A DNA stretch of 64,000 bases from an uncultured Clostridia bacterium. GTDB lineage: Bacteria; Bacillota; Clostridia; Saccharofermentanales; Saccharofermentanaceae. The DNA lies in NCBI GenBank assembly GCA_947303185.1, contig CAMYXF010000001.1, positions 1-64,000 of the forward strand, written 5' to 3'. Under the pieces are notes generated by a model. That model was not told where the DNA came from, made no database searches, and worked only from the letters and a program-made list of their open reading frames with translations. Below, one piece after another: positions 5,461-18,645 of this stretch (within the stretch, counting starts at the first letter, position 1; every line of letters starts with the position of its first letter). The position numbers and the translations under genes are program-made.

Positions 5461-7716
5461 TTAGAACTCTCTTCTTCTGCCCTTCGGATTCTCGGGTGCT
5501 TCGTTGCTGCCCTCATCGTCTCCGCCGAAGTTCTTTCTGCCGCCATTTCTGCCGGCAAATCCGCCTCTTCTTTCACGATTGGGTCTGCCCTCTCTTCTTC
5601 TGGGCTCTTCCTCTACATATCCTTCCGGCTTAGGTAAGCAGTCACGGATGGAGAGGTTGAGTCTGCCCTGTGAATCGATCTCGATGAGCTTAACGTGTAC
5701 CTTGTCACCTTCGTGGAGAACGTCTTCAACCTTCTCTACTCTGTTCCAAGCCATCTTGGAGATGTGAACGAGACCTTCCTTACCGGGGAGGAATTCAACG
5801 AATGCGCCGAAGTCCATAAGTCTTGTAACTGTACCGTCGTACTCTGTACCAACCTCAGGATCTGCAACGATGCCGTTGATGATCATCTTAGCCTTCTCAG
5901 CCTTTTCGAGGTCAGGTGTGGAGATGTAAACCATACCGTCGTCGTTGATGTTGATCTGAGCACCTGTGTCAGCGATGATCTTGTTGATGACCTTTCCGCC
6001 GGAACCGATGACTTCTCTGATCTTGTCAACAGGTACCTGCATGGAGATGATTCTGGGAGCCCACTTGTTGAGCTCTGCACGGGGTGCGGGAATGCAAGGG
6101 AGAATGATGTCGTTGATGATCTGGAGTCTTCCCTTGTGTGTCATCTCGAAAGCAGCCTTGATGATGTCTAATGTAAGACCTTCAACCTTGATATCAACCT
6201 GGATGGATGTGATACCTTCTGTAGTACCTGCAACCTTGAAGTCCATATCGCCGAAGAAGTCCTCGATGCCCTGGATATCCATGAATACGAGGAAGTTGTC
6301 GTCGTTGTCGGGATCTGTGATAAGTCCTGAAGAGATACCTGCAACAGGTCTCTTGATCGGAACGCCTGCATCCATGAGTGAGAGTGTGGAAGCGCAAACA
6401 GAACCCTGTGATGTAGAACCGTTACTCATTGTGATCTCAGATACTGTTCTGATTGAGTAAGGGAACTCTTCCTCTGAAGGAAGTACAGGAATGAGAGATC
6501 TCTCAGCGAGAGCGCCGTGACCGATCTCACGTCTTCCGGGTGATCTGGAAGGCTTAGCCTCACCTGTTGAGTAACCCGGGAAGTTATAGTGGTGAATGTA
6601 TCTCTTGTATGTCTGCTCATCGAGGCCCTCGAGCTTCTGAGCTTCGTCAAGAGGAGCGAGAGTACAGATGTTCATTACCTGTGTCTGGCCTCTCTGGAAG
6701 AAAGATGAACCGTGAACTCTGGGGAGTACGCCAACGCCTGCTGACAAAGGTCTGATCTCATCAAGAGCTCTGCCGTCAACTCTGACATGCTCTCTGAAGA
6801 GGTAATCTCTTACGACCTTCTTCTCGAGCTTATAGATAGCATCGGGTGCCCACTTTGAAAGGCCCTCTTCCTTCTCTTCGAGCATTGCTGCAACTTCTTC
6901 CTGAAGAACTGCAACGTTGCCGTCTCTTACTTCCTTGTCCTTGGAAAGAACTGCCTGACGCATTCTGTCCCAGCCGTATTCCTTAACAGCTTCGAAGATC
7001 TCTTCCGGAACGTCAGCTGACTCGTAAGTGAACTTCTCCTTACCGATCTCAGCAACGATGCTGTTGATGAACTCGCAGATCTTCTTGATCTCTTCGTGAC
7101 CTTCAGCGATAGCGTTGAGCATTACGTCATCAGGTACTTCGTTAGCGCCAGCCTCAACCATGCAGATCTTTGTGAGTGTACCGGCAAGAGTTACGTACAT
7201 GTCAGATACTTCACGCTGCTCGAGTGTAGGGTTGATGATTGTCTTACCGTCGATGAGACCGAGTACAACGCCACCTACAGGTCCCTTCCACGGGATGTCT
7301 GAAATAGCGATTGCGATTGATGTACCGAGCATAGCTGTGATCTCGGGTGAGCAATCAGGATCAACGGACATAACGAGGTTGTTTACGCAAACGTCGTTTC
7401 TGAGATCCTTAGGGAACAAAGGTCTGATAGGACGGTCGATAACACGGGATACGAGAATAGCCTTCTCGCCAGGTCTTCCCTCTCTCTTGAGGAAGCCGCC
7501 CGGGATCTTACCTACTGCATACATCTTTTCCTCGTAGTCTACTGAAAGCGGGAAGAAATCGATTCCCTCACGAGGTGTAGCACTTGCTGTTACTGTGGAA
7601 AGCACGCTTGTCTCACCGTATCTGATAAGAACGGATCCGTTGGCAAACTGTGCAATCTTACCGGTCTCGACAACCAACGGTCTGCCGGCGATTTCAGTTC
7701 TGAAAATCTTTTCCAT
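5461..7716 (-). CDS. pnp: Polyribonucleotide nucleotidyltransferase (PNPase)
   Basis: Two RNase PH domains, KH (IREVIGSGGKVINKI) and S1 (GTVTRLMDFGAFVEFLPGKEGLVHISK); AAAGGAG 6 nt before ATG. Confidence 0.97.
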   Translation of the reverse strand: MEKIFRTEIAGRPLVVETGKIAQFANGSVLIRYGETSVLSTVTASATPREGIDFFPLSVDYEEKMYAVGKIPGGFLKREGRPGEKAILVSRVIDRPIRPLFPKDLRNDVCVNNLVMSVDPDCSPEITAMLGTSIAIAISDIPWKGPVGGVVLGLIDGKTIINPTLEQREVSDMYVTLAGTLTKICMVEAGANEVPDDVMLNAIAEGHEEIKKICEFINSIVAEIGKEKFTYESADVPEEIFEAVKEYGWDRMRQAVLSKDKEVRDGNVAVLQEEVAAMLEEKEEGLSKWAPDAIYKLEKKVVRDYLFREHVRVDGRALDEIRPLSAGVGVLPRVHGSSFFQRGQTQVMNICTLAPLDEAQKLEGLDEQTYKRYIHHYNFPGYSTGEAKPSRSPGRREIGHGALAERSLIPVLPSEEEFPYSIRTVSEITMSNGSTSQGSVCASTLSLMDAGVPIKRPVAGISSGLITDPDNDDNFLVFMDIQGIEDFFGDMDFKVAGTTEGITSIQVDIKVEGLTLDIIKAAFEMTHKGRLQIINDIILPCIPAPRAELNKWAPRIISMQVPVDKIREVIGSGGKVINKIIADTGAQININDDGMVYISTPDLEKAEKAKMIINGIVADPEVGTEYDGTVTRLMDFGAFVEFLPGKEGLVHISKMAWNRVEKVEDVLHEGDKVHVKLIEIDSQGRLNLSIRDCLPKPEGYVEEEPRRREGRPNRERRGGFAGRNGGRKNFGGDDEGSNEAPENPKGRRREF

Positions 7717-7750
7717 CTGAAACTCCTTTATGAAATATAGAATTTTTTGT

Positions 7751-7835
7751 AAAGGAGGTAGTTCGTAGATTCACGGTCCGAGCAAAACCTGCCGGCTCGG
7801 TGTTCGGGCAGTCAATCTACACACTACACTCCTTC
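7751..7835 (-). promoter_or_regulatory. Structured 5' leader of pnp (nested stems plus candidate H-type pseudoknot and anti-SD)
   Basis: Minus strand: AAGGAG-U-GUAGU pairs ACUACCUCCUU; GUAGAUU pairs AAUCUAC; CUGCC pairs GGCAG interleaved with CCGAGC/GCUCGG. Confidence 0.55.
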
Positions 7836-7930
7836 TCGAACTTATTAATTATATACTAAATATGCAATAAGACAAACCGTTTTGAGAATAGTAAATGACG
7901 CTTTTTTACGAAAAATAAAACCGGGGACTG

Positions 7931-8563
7931 TTACATCTCCGGTATTGTTTTCGCTATTATCTCAGCAAGTCCTTTGTGTCCGTCGGGACCCAGATGCAGT
8001 CCGTCTTCCACAGACGGCTTGATATAGAGCTTTGCGTCAAGGAAAGCGCAGCCGTGCTTGTCGGCGACCTTCTTGTAGTATTCGGCCAGGCGCTTTGACT
8101 TATCGATGGAAACCTGGTCAAAAGAGCCCTGGAAAGGTCCTGTCAGGATATCCGTTGAGATCTCCGGCGGAGATACTACAAGGATCTTCGGAACAAATCC
8201 CTGCTTGATGTTCATTACGCTCTCTGCCTTGCTAACGATCTCATTGAGGCCGTTTGCTATTGCATCAGGAGAAGCATTGTAAACAGTCTTCATATCGTTG
8301 GTTCCGAGCATGATGACAAGATAATCAACAGGTCTGTGCGTGCAGAGGATTCCCTTGATGTAGTCGATTCCCTTCTTCCAGTCGTCATTGGGATCGTCGA
8401 AAACAGTGGTCCTGCCGTTAAGTCCTTCTTCGATGACTTTATAGCCGTCACCAAGTAGTCCCTGCAAAAGGCAAGGCCATCTTACGCTCTCGGGAAGTCT
8501 CTCACCATTAACGGGATTATGTCCGTAAGTATTTGAATCGCCGAAGCAAACTACTGATTTCAT
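7931..8563 (-). CDS. SGNH/GDSL-type hydrolase
   Basis: N-terminal GDSNTYG block, MLGTNDMK block, C-terminal DGLHLGPDGH. Confidence 0.85.
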   Translation of the reverse strand: MKSVVCFGDSNTYGHNPVNGERLPESVRWPCLLQGLLGDGYKVIEEGLNGRTTVFDDPNDDWKKGIDYIKGILCTHRPVDYLVIMLGTNDMKTVYNASPDAIANGLNEIVSKAESVMNIKQGFVPKILVVSPPEISTDILTGPFQGSFDQVSIDKSKRLAEYYKKVADKHGCAFLDAKLYIKPSVEDGLHLGPDGHKGLAEIIAKTIPEM

Positions 8564-8565
8564 GC

Positions 8566-10494
8566 TTAGTCCTTTACCGTCTTCAAGTCATCAAGCCATA
8601 CGTTTCTGGATGCGTCGGAAGGCATTCTCCAGTCGCCTCTCGGAGACAGGGATACCGTACCGACCTTAGGACCGTCAGGTACGCAGGATCTCTTAAACTG
8701 CTGAGCGAAGAAACGTCTCAAGAAGGTCTCTTCCCACTTGTAGATGGTATCTGCATCGTAAGCGCCGTCAAAGGCTCTGAGCGCCATACGGTAGATCTTT
8801 GAAGGCGTGAAGCCATATCTGATCATGTAGTAGAGGAAGAAATCGTGGAGCTCGTAAGGTCCGACTGTTTCTTCTGTCTTCTGTGAGATTTTGCCGTCTT
8901 CTGTCGGCGGAAGGAGCTCAGGAGATACAGGCGTATCAACGATGTCAGCAAGCGCCTTTGAAAGAGCCGGGCTGATCTCAGCAGTACGCTGGGACTCATA
9001 GGATACGAGGTATCTTACGAGCGTCTTGGGGATAGAGCAGTTAACTCCGTACATGGACATGTGGTCGCCGTTATATGTAGCCCAGCCCAGAGCGAGCTCA
9101 GAAAGGTCACCTGTACCGATTACGATACCGCCCTCCTGGTTTGCGATGTCCATGAGGATCTGCGTACGCTCTCTTGCCTGCGAATTCTCATATGTGATGT
9201 CGTGGACATCCATGTCGTGACCGATGTCCTTAAAATGCTGTGTAACGCTGTCAGAGATGGAGATCTCTCTTAATGTGCAGCCGTACTCTTCAGCGATATT
9301 GATCGAGTTGTTCTTCGTTCTGGAAGTCGTGCCGAAGCCGGGCATCGTAATGCCGATGATGTTCTTTCTGTCCAGACCGAGCTTATCGAAAGCGTGGATG
9401 GTTACGATGAGCGCGAGAGTGGAATCAAGACCGCCGGACAGACCGATAACAGCCTTCTGACAATTGATTGCCTTAAGTCTTGTATAAAGGCCAGCTGCCT
9501 GCATTCCGAGAATGTCCTCACATCTTGAAGCAAGGTCAGTCTTGTCCGAAGGAACAAACGGAGTTCTGCTTACCTTTCTCTGAGGCTTGATATCAGGGAA
9601 TTCCGCGTCGAATTCAACGATGTCTACGCCGTTATAGCCGGCGTTATCGGTAAAGAACGTATTGCTCCTTCTTCTGTCTGCTTCGATCCTCTCAAGATCT
9701 AGGTCAGCGTAAAGGATAGCGTCCTCATCGTTATCGTTTGCAAATCTCTTGCTCTCTGCAAGAATCTTGCCGTTCTCTGCAATAAGGTTATGGCCTGCGA
9801 AAACAAGGTCCTGAGTAGATTCTCCAAGACCAGCATCGCAGTAAACGTAAGCTGCCATGAGCTTTGCGCTCTGCATCTTAACGAGGTCTTTTCTGAACTT
9901 TGCCTTACCTATGATCTCATCAGAACAGGACAGGTTGAATATGACCTCTGCCCCACTCTTTACGTAATCAACAGACGGACTGTAAGCGACCCAGAGGTCC
10001 TCACAGATCTCAACTGCAAAGTTGAATCCGTCACAGTTAAACACTGCCCTTCCGAAGCAGATGCCTTCATCGGTCATGATGACACCTTCATCTTCATAAG
10101 GCGTGAAATGTCTTAATTCATAGAACTCTGAATGGTTGGGAATGTTCTGCTTGGGAACGATTCCGATGATGTCACCCTGGTGGATGACTGCAGCAACGTT
10201 ATAGAGCTTGCCGCCCAACTCATAAGGAAGGCCTACGATAATTACAGTATTAAGATCTGCTGTCTGGTCAGCGAGATCGTAAAGGCCGTCAATTGCTTTA
10301 TCAAGCAGAGCATTCTGCAGGAAAAGATCGCCGCAAGTATAACCGGTCAATCCCAGCTCCGGGAAAACGACAACCGCACAATCGTTGGAAGCTGCTTTTC
10401 GGGCGAGGCTTATTGTCTCAGCCACATTGTAATCAACATCACCGACTCTGACCTTCGGGCTTGCCGCCGCTACTCTGATAAAACCGTCAAGCAT
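8566..10494 (-). CDS. nadE: Glutamine-dependent NAD+ synthase
   Basis: N-terminal nitrilase-like glutaminase domain (FPELGLTGY, EICEDLW) and C-terminal synthetase P-loop SGGLDSTLAL. Confidence 0.93.
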   Translation of the reverse strand: MLDGFIRVAAASPKVRVGDVDYNVAETISLARKAASNDCAVVVFPELGLTGYTCGDLFLQNALLDKAIDGLYDLADQTADLNTVIIVGLPYELGGKLYNVAAVIHQGDIIGIVPKQNIPNHSEFYELRHFTPYEDEGVIMTDEGICFGRAVFNCDGFNFAVEICEDLWVAYSPSVDYVKSGAEVIFNLSCSDEIIGKAKFRKDLVKMQSAKLMAAYVYCDAGLGESTQDLVFAGHNLIAENGKILAESKRFANDNDEDAILYADLDLERIEADRRRSNTFFTDNAGYNGVDIVEFDAEFPDIKPQRKVSRTPFVPSDKTDLASRCEDILGMQAAGLYTRLKAINCQKAVIGLSGGLDSTLALIVTIHAFDKLGLDRKNIIGITMPGFGTTSRTKNNSINIAEEYGCTLREISISDSVTQHFKDIGHDMDVHDITYENSQARERTQILMDIANQEGGIVIGTGDLSELALGWATYNGDHMSMYGVNCSIPKTLVRYLVSYESQRTAEISPALSKALADIVDTPVSPELLPPTEDGKISQKTEETVGPYELHDFFLYYMIRYGFTPSKIYRMALRAFDGAYDADTIYKWEETFLRRFFAQQFKRSCVPDGPKVGTVSLSPRGDWRMPSDASRNVWLDDLKTVKD

Positions 10495-10544
10495 AGTAAA
10501 ACCTCCCGGAACTTACTAAATATTAATTATAGCATCTTTAGACA

Positions 10545-10573
10545 CAAAAAAGCGGTCCCGTAAGGAACCGCTT
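10545..10573 (-). terminator. Rho-independent terminator after rpsO
   Basis: AAGCGGTTCC-TTAC-GGGACCGCTTTTTT on the minus strand. Confidence 0.75.
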
Positions 10574-10598
10574 TCTTTGAAATAACCTTGGTGAAAGA

Positions 10599-10865
10599 TT
10601 ACTTTCTGATGCCGAGCTTTGCGATAAGTGTTCTGTAACGCTCGATATCAACTGCTGCAAGATAGTCAAGGATGTTTCTTCTCTTACCAACCATCATGAG
10701 AAGACCTCTTCTGCTGTGGTGGTCACCCTTGTGGGTCTTGAGGTGTTCTGTGAGGTGGTTGATCCTGTAAGTAAGAAGTGCAACCTGAACCTCCGGAGAA
10801 CCTGTATCGCCCTCAGAGAGTGCATATTCCTTGATGATAGCCTGCTTGTCGAAAGATGCTGACAT
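10599..10865 (-). CDS. rpsO: 30S ribosomal protein S15
   Basis: [56 protein letters not shown]...; 88 aa. Start reassigned from the longer ORF; SD AAGGAGG upstream. Confidence 0.96.
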
Positions 10866-10952
10866 AAATCTTTCCTCCTTAATGATAAATACGCCAAAAT
10901 CGAAGGTAAGGGTCGGAGTCTTCCGCAAAACTGCGATTAAGGCAACTTGGTG

Positions 10953-10981
10953 ATAATACCATCCAAGCCTTGATTTGTAAA
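10953..10981 (-). promoter_or_regulatory. Candidate sigma-A promoter for rpsO
   Basis: TTTACA (10976-10981), 17-nt spacer, TATTAT (10953-10958) on the minus strand. Confidence 0.5.
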
Positions 10982-10992
10982 GCGTTTCTATA

Positions 10993-11025
10993 TAAAAACG
11001 GCTGCCTTTATTCAAGACAGCCGCT
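10993..11025 (-). terminator. Rho-independent terminator after hppA
   Basis: CGGCTGTC...GGCAGCCG followed by TTTTTATAT on the minus strand. Confidence 0.7.
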
Positions 11026-17928: not shown

Positions 17929-18645
17929 TCAGACGCTATCGGGATAAAGGCTCATGTACTCCTTTATGCCCTTCTCAGCGCACTTCTGCTCGGCATCCTT
18001 CTTGCTGTGGCCCGTGGCGCTTGCCAGGAGCACGTCATCCGAATAAACACTGACGTCGAATTCTTTCATGTGGGCAGGTCCGCGCTCTCCGGTCACCTCG
18101 AATCTGATCGTGTGCTGGAAACCTCTGGTCTGCGCCAATTCAAGCAGTCTGCTCTTGTAATCCAGGAAGATCTCGCCGTTAACTGCCTTCTGAACTGTTT
18201 CGGTAAGATTTTTCAAGATACATTTTCTAGCCTGTTCGAATCCGCCGTCGAAATAAACTGCCGCAATAACCGACTCAAAGCAGTCGGCAAGCGTCGAATC
18301 CTTGTCATTGCCGCCATTCTGCGCCTCACCCTTGCCAAGAAGCAGATAATCGCCCAAATGGAGCTTTCTTGCTACTTCGGCAAAAGACTTTTCGCAAACA
18401 GAGACACTTCTCATCTTTGAAAGATAACCTTCGTCAGCCTGGGGCTTGAGCTCGTAGAGCATCTGGCCTACAACGACGTCAAGTACAGCGTCACCGATGA
18501 ACTCGAGTCTCTGGTTGGACTCCCAGTGGCCTCTTCCCGTCTCGAAAACGTATGTCGTGTGGGTAAAAGCCGTCTCAAGGACTGATTTGTCTTTAAAGGT
18601 ATATCCCAGGTCTTTTTCTAATTCTGTATAGTCTGTCATAGTCAT
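17929..18645 (-). CDS. rnc: Ribonuclease III
   Basis: RLEFIGDAVLDVVV signature, STLADCFESVIAAVYFD, C-terminal dsRBD. Start likely MTMTDYTELEKDLGY, within the longer ORF. Confidence 0.95.
   Translation of the reverse strand: MTMTDYTELEKDLGYTFKDKSVLETAFTHTTYVFETGRGHWESNQRLEFIGDAVLDVVVGQMLYELKPQADEGYLSKMRSVSVCEKSFAEVARKLHLGDYLLLGKGEAQNGGNDKDSTLADCFESVIAAVYFDGGFEQARKCILKNLTETVQKAVNGEIFLDYKSRLLELAQTRGFQHTIRFEVTGERGPAHMKEFDVSVYSDDVLLASATGHSKKDAEQKCAEKGIKEYMSLYPDSV

Follow-up and report, generated by a model that had tools for sequence, protein, structure and literature searches.

A conserved leader hairpin of clostridial pnp genes and a predicted lineage-specific anti-Shine-Dalgarno switch in Saccharofermentans

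The pnp locus and its leader hairpin

We analysed a 64,000-nucleotide stretch of contig CAMYXF010000001.1 from an uncultured Clostridia bacterium (the window), in which pnp, the gene for polynucleotide phosphorylase (PNPase), is preceded on the minus strand by a structured leader that sits between a GDSL-lipase gene and pnp itself (Table 1). The gene downstream of the leader encodes a complete PNPase, in which RNase PH, KH and S1 domains are all present, and RNase III, which is needed by the mechanism proposed below, is encoded within the window itself. The GDSL-lipase gene and an NAD synthase gene (7931-11015, minus strand) intervene between pnp and an rpsO-like open reading frame in the window; in several relatives from other families, the pnp leader directly follows the end of rpsO and a terminator-like hairpin. 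Since a promoter-like TTGTCT-16-TATAAT ends at 7848, the mRNA should start at approximately 7841-7838, a few nucleotides 5' of the hairpin. A transcription start downstream of 7751 is unlikely, because this consensus promoter places the 5' end just before the hairpin.

Table 1. Features of the pnp leader and neighbouring genes (window coordinates).
Feature	Position	Strand	Remarks
pnp, polynucleotide phosphorylase	5461..7716	-	751 aa; RNase PH domains, KH, S1
pnp Shine-Dalgarno UAAAGGAG	7723..7730	-	perfect complement of 7757-7750
3' outer arm CUCCUUUA, potential anti-Shine-Dalgarno	7750..7757	-	CUCCU invariant in 29/29 same-genus leaders
Lower core helix, 3' strand CUAC	7758..7761	-	covariation analysis
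Upper core helix, 3' strand AAUCUAC	7765..7771	-	covariation analysis
Apical helix, 3' strand	7773..7781	-	covariation
Apical helix, 5' strand	7804..7812	-	pairs with 7781-7773; 9/9 pairs with double-sided changes
Upper core helix, 5' strand GUAGAUU	7814..7820	-	pairs with AAUCUAC 7771-7765
3x3 internal loop, 5' side UGU	7821..7823	-	faces GAA 7764-7762
Lower core helix, 5' strand GUAG	7824..7827	-	pairs with CUAC 7761-7758; 100% paired in 48 leaders
5' outer arm (G)AAGGAG	7829..7835	-	pairs with 7757-7751; U7828 bulged
Putative promoter TTGTCT-16-TATAAT	7848..7875	-	3' end at 7848
GDSL-lipase gene, upstream neighbour of pnp	7931..8563	-	
rnc, RNase III	17962..18621	-	TIGR02191, E = 1.5e-67

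Folding places the leader (7835-7751) in a single long imperfect hairpin with an energy of -43.2 kcal/mol (z = -4.8), and none of 200 dinucleotide shuffles was equally stable. An initial annotation of this DNA had drawn an outer stem (AAGGAG 7834-7829 with CUCCUU 7757-7752, bulged U7828), a stem GUAG(U) 7827-7823 with (A)CUAC 7762-7758, and a helix GUAGAUU 7820-7814 with AAUCUAC 7771-7765, all of which we recovered at these positions. The intervening internal loop is small, as that annotation held, and its size differs from the proposed 2x2: it is 3x3 in the family, with U7823-A7762 able to close one pair in the window. This loop size is kept among leaders gathered by pnp homology alone, and a conserved G7813/G7772 mismatch separates the upper core helix from the apical helix.

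The apex had been interpreted as an H-type pseudoknot, with CUGCC/GGCAG interleaved with CCGAGC/GCUCGG, and the window sequence does allow both helices to be drawn. GGCAG (7793-7789), however, occurs in 1 of 23 distinct CUGCC leaders, that is, in the window alone, so that the conserved or covarying loop-to-flank helix expected of such a pseudoknot is absent from these leaders. The same nucleotides instead belong to an apical helix, nested and supported by covariation, between 7812-7804 and 7773-7781. In leaders L002 and L012, a joint change from CCGA/UCGG to CCGG/CCGG keeps this nested helix and breaks the alternative CGAGC/GCUCG pairing, and we regard a regulatory pseudoknot as next to impossible. 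The short CGAGC/GCUCG alternative can be formed in 8 of the 29 leaders of the genus and may be a local variant. A minimal upstream open reading frame, GUG-UAG, following the AAGGAG of the 5' arm was also considered and rejected, as it is lost in relatives (GUAGUUAGUAG, GUAGUAAGUAG, GUAGUGGGUAG).

Conservation, covariation and attachment to pnp

Using PNPase N-termini, we gathered the regions upstream of pnp from 50 relatives in the genus and the order, and 49 of these 50 have a related hairpin in front of pnp; the element occurs with exact spacing in 48 of the 50 regions, and L031 carries one extra base. The shared core of these type-1 leaders reads GUAG-NNN-GUAGAUUG-apical helix and loop-GAAUCUAC-NNN-CUAC, and the consensus is completed by the G-G mismatch on top of the upper helix and by an outer stem that varies. 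In the type-1 alignment (A1), standard pairs fill 91.3% of cells, compared with 27-40% when the strands are slid against each other, and both sides of a pair have changed in 141 cells, compared with 47.5 in shuffles. The covariation check on related leaders that the initial annotation had proposed therefore returns a signal far above both controls. Double-sided changes occur at 11 of 20 pairs, including all nine apical pairs (columns 32-40 / 71-79), while in the upper core helix 2 of 7 pairs covary and the others are nearly invariant. Because the GUAG and CUAC blocks are almost invariant in type-1 leaders, covariation offers no proof of their pairing and their conservation points to a sequence-specific constraint. 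These observations show the pnp leader to be a real, conserved structured RNA. A DNA-binding inverted repeat is disfavoured by the compensatory changes, the G-U pairs and the variable loop length.

To examine the genomic context of the element, we scanned GTDB genomes with a strand-specific pattern that holds no pnp information, which returned at least 80 loci. Among the matches listed, 68 of 80 lie 24-93 nt upstream of a same-strand pnp start and two more are pnp leaders by sequence reading, giving 70 of 80; of these two, L074 has a PNPase-like N-terminus downstream of the element, where the available DNA runs out, and L101 has the same leader sequence as its relatives. The other ten of the 80 listed loci are all non-clostridial or unclassified, and those inspected are mostly GTAG-type repeats in unrelated taxa. 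In L092, L102, L106, L112, L114 and L125, GTAG-type tandem repeats with flanking complementary CTAC repeats imitate the pattern, and such tandem repeats of unrelated bacteria account for most of the non-pnp matches among those listed.

In a class-wide sample, a related pattern matched 12 of 118 genomes, each time at pnp (12/12). Covariance models found a single site (plus its antisense echo) in 33 of 33 type-1 genomes and in 28 of 29 genomes carrying a second type (described below); since these genomes overlap the training set of the models and the first look was limited, the counts speak to copy number and not to breadth. A covariance-model search over the phylum returned the window itself and two chance hits, with few candidates scored per genome, and for that reason pnp-anchored sampling was adopted. 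Holders of the type-1 leader include Saccharofermentans, Mageeibacillus, Ruminiclostridium papyrosolvens, R. cellobioparum, Acetivibrio straminisolvens and A. mesophilus. Attachment to pnp only is as expected for gene-specific feedback by PNPase, a reading that the sequence distribution supports.

The same distribution bears on the suggestion, also made in the initial annotation, that the leader is a ligand-sensing RNA. A riboswitch that senses a metabolite connected with RNA decay could explain the deeply conserved nucleotides and the alternative structure that sequesters the Shine-Dalgarno (SD) sequence. Riboswitches have a conserved aptamer, often placed before several genes of a pathway; here we find a single hairpin whose conservation, including its invariant positions, lies in helices, which occurs once per genome and upstream of pnp only among the matches listed, and which matches no Rfam riboswitch. 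We therefore disfavour ligand sensing as very improbable.

A second pattern, UUAGC-NNN-UA.../...UA-NNN-GCUAA (type 2), precedes pnp in other clostridial families; in a set of 109 pnp leaders from the same class, it is carried by many of those that lack the GUAG core. In 29 aligned type-2 leaders, 94.4% of cells are paired, 88 cells have changed on both sides (24.4 in shuffles) and all 11 upper pairs covary. Both types fit one shape, UAG-N4-UA.../...UA-N4-CUA, in which the position of the 3x3 loop differs by one pair. When this shape was searched for loosely, 42 of the 109 leaders matched, compared with 55 of 1090 mononucleotide-shuffled sequences, and chance probably accounts for a few of the 42. 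Among 89 leaders from the wider phylum, three matched: L309, which belongs to a genome of the window's own class, L379 from another class, which looks real, and L312, which looks doubtful. In the type-2 leaders L224, L229 and L244 (family f147), four UAG blocks at 7-nt spacing face equally spaced CUA blocks.

An mRNA that begins at the hairpin could also use it as a 5'-terminal protective stem against pyrophosphohydrolase and RNase J, setting mRNA stability without feedback. TATAAT lies 19-41 nt upstream of GUAG in all 29 Saccharofermentans leaders, from which it follows that the transcript should begin at the stem. By contrast, TATAAT is found at that position in 1 of 19 leaders from other families of the order, and several leaders lie behind the end of rpsO and a terminator-like hairpin; the core is equally conserved in both groups, and a protective stem would not need an invariant internal sequence. 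We consider this explanation improbable.

The 3' arm as a candidate anti-Shine-Dalgarno

As claimed initially, the pnp SD AAAGGAG (7729-7723) is complementary to CUCCUUU (7757-7751) in the 3' arm of the hairpin. For counting the conservation of this arm, leaders were chosen by genus membership. Within Saccharofermentans the CUCCU strand is constant in 29 of 29 leaders, and the 5' outer arm that faces it varies, sometimes forming one pair fewer. In an ensemble model, removal of the 5' arm lowers the probability that the SD is unpaired from 0.50 to 0.02, with a decrease in all 29 genus leaders, which are not independent of one another. In 27 further leaders with CUCCU, the modelled probability falls from 0.63 to 0.01 (27/27). 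The predicted effect is weaker in other clostridial leaders, which carry CCGCC, AGUCUG or other sequences at the site of the 3' arm: the probability falls from 0.70 to 0.40 in 47 type-1 leaders without CUCCU and from 0.59 to 0.37 in type 2. Swapping SD sequences among genomes weakens the duplex between arm and SD only slightly, so that coevolution of the two is weak evidence; swapped sets were as strong in 0 of 200 trials for the CUCCU set and in 6 of 200 for the genus alone.

The proposed competition between the 5' arm and the SD for one strand thus holds for the lineage of the window, by the invariant CUCCU and the predicted sequestration of the SD, and is not general among clostridia. We consider the anti-SD switch to be lineage-specific but robust, a good prediction of the model. 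As a general clostridial mechanism it is not supported, since it is absent from most other clostridial leaders.

Comparison with known pnp leaders and possible mechanisms

Autoregulation of PNPase through its leader is a classic system, worked out mainly in proteobacteria and actinobacteria. The initial annotation had suggested an autoregulatory element here as well; the covarying leader and its strict attachment to pnp support this proposal. In E. coli, according to the available text of PMC3848588 (citing Jarrige et al. 2001), the leader stem is cut by RNase III and its 5' arm is degraded by PNPase. The clostridial leader resembles that system (Jarrige et al. 2001; Portier and co-workers) in being a long hairpin in the pnp 5' UTR, in the RNase III cut and 5'-arm erosion by PNPase that we propose for it, and, in several inspected relatives outside Saccharofermentans, in the position of pnp just downstream of rpsO. 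Read by eye, the E. coli leader differs in lacking the GUAG/CUAC core, and the two have no common core sequence; Saccharofermentans further differs in its built-in anti-SD and in a pnp that is separate from rpsO and has its own putative promoter.

RNase III cuts have been mapped or predicted in Gram-positive pnp 5' UTR hairpins, which the clostridial leader resembles as far as the available source text describes them: the leader of Cutibacterium (Propionibacterium) acnes is cut in a staggered manner, with E. coli and Streptomyces cited alongside (PMC3848588), and the pnp 5' UTR of Streptococcus pyogenes is cut by RNase III with retention of a 22-nt fragment proposed to be still duplexed with the mRNA (PMC6431027). 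The Streptomyces intergenic hairpin is an RNase III substrate (PMC5872136), and the B. subtilis enzyme favours duplexes in which paired sites are separated by 2 bp (PMC11780869). Within the open-access literature, the clostridial core is not described in the available text of PMC6431027 and PMC3848588, whose leaders were compared by description, and the search turned up no report of cleavage, binding or expression for a clostridial pnp leader.

A comparable entry is the Actino-pnp motif (Rfam RF01688), a conserved structured RNA that acts in cis on pnp genes of Actinomycetales (Weinberg et al. 2010, PMC2864571). Both are structured RNAs directly upstream of pnp in one bacterial group, whereas their distributions differ, Actinomycetales in one case and clostridia in the other. 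The RF01688 covariance model (gathering score 47.7 bits) had no match in the whole genome at E <= 10 and none in the clostridial leaders tested. An Rfam scan of the window found no family at gathering score except a tRNA, and scans of the leaders gave weak sub-threshold matches only, with neither type 1 nor type 2 present in Rfam. A strictly pnp-bound, covarying leader that spans many clostridial families is therefore absent from Rfam, and it is a known regulatory principle in a form not represented there. This suggests that pnp leaders with little common sequence do the same job in several lineages.

Most likely, the leader would let PNPase limit its own production. Because of the exclusive attachment to pnp, the architecture and the precedents, we favour, as rather probable, a cis-acting leader RNA through which PNPase exerts feedback on its own mRNA via RNase III. 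The processing steps are extrapolated from E. coli, Streptomyces, Cutibacterium and Streptococcus. RNase III would cleave the hairpin duplex, leaving the cut 5' arm annealed with a short 3' overhang, and PNPase, when abundant, would degrade this annealed arm from its 3' end. In Saccharofermentans, the freed CUCCUUU of the 3' arm could then pair with AAAGGAG and turn translation off; in other clostridia, loss of the duplex may lower translation or stability by another route, as in E. coli. If true, control in Saccharofermentans would end at translation, through the unmasked anti-SD, an outcome that is not described for E. coli.

RNase III or PNPase probably uses the invariant UAG/CUA pairs next to the 3x3 loop for recognition or positioning. 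Against the RNase III model, the invariant GUAG pairs are not obviously required by this enzyme, so that the core may be read by another protein, in its place or in addition. Such a protein, or PNPase itself as a simple RNA-binding repressor, could bind the UAG-N4-UA core and block translation while leaving the RNA uncut, as at ribosomal-protein leaders: near-invariant pairs flanking a fixed 3x3 loop resemble sequence-specific duplex recognition more than a generic RNase III substrate, the attachment to pnp is strict, and PNPase has KH and S1 domains. The published pnp leaders considered here are nevertheless RNase III substrates (PMC5872136, PMC3848588 and PMC6431027), and in the window the core and the SD do not overlap, being separated by approximately 30 nt or more. 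We judge repression by binding alone to be unlikely. More tentatively than the RNase III-dependent feedback that we favour, the leaders might form a clostridial class of their own, with two types built on one core (3x3 loop and UAG/CUA), sequence-specific reading of the duplex by PNPase or RNase III, and an off-switch in Saccharofermentans by the unmasked anti-SD. The leader provides a defined core that can be mutated, and its anti-SD switch can be tested.

A separate stretch of approximately 24 nt, GGAAAUAMUA-N6/7-UGUCGAA, occurs 31-74 nt before pnp in 17 of the 89 leaders of the phylum sample and in 0 of the 109 leaders from the window's class. Its carriers, from other classes, include L298, L301, L302, L311, L319, L342, L348, L353, L357 and L361. 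The exact pattern occurred four times in eight genomes searched, three times at pnp, and the stretch is possibly another pnp leader element.
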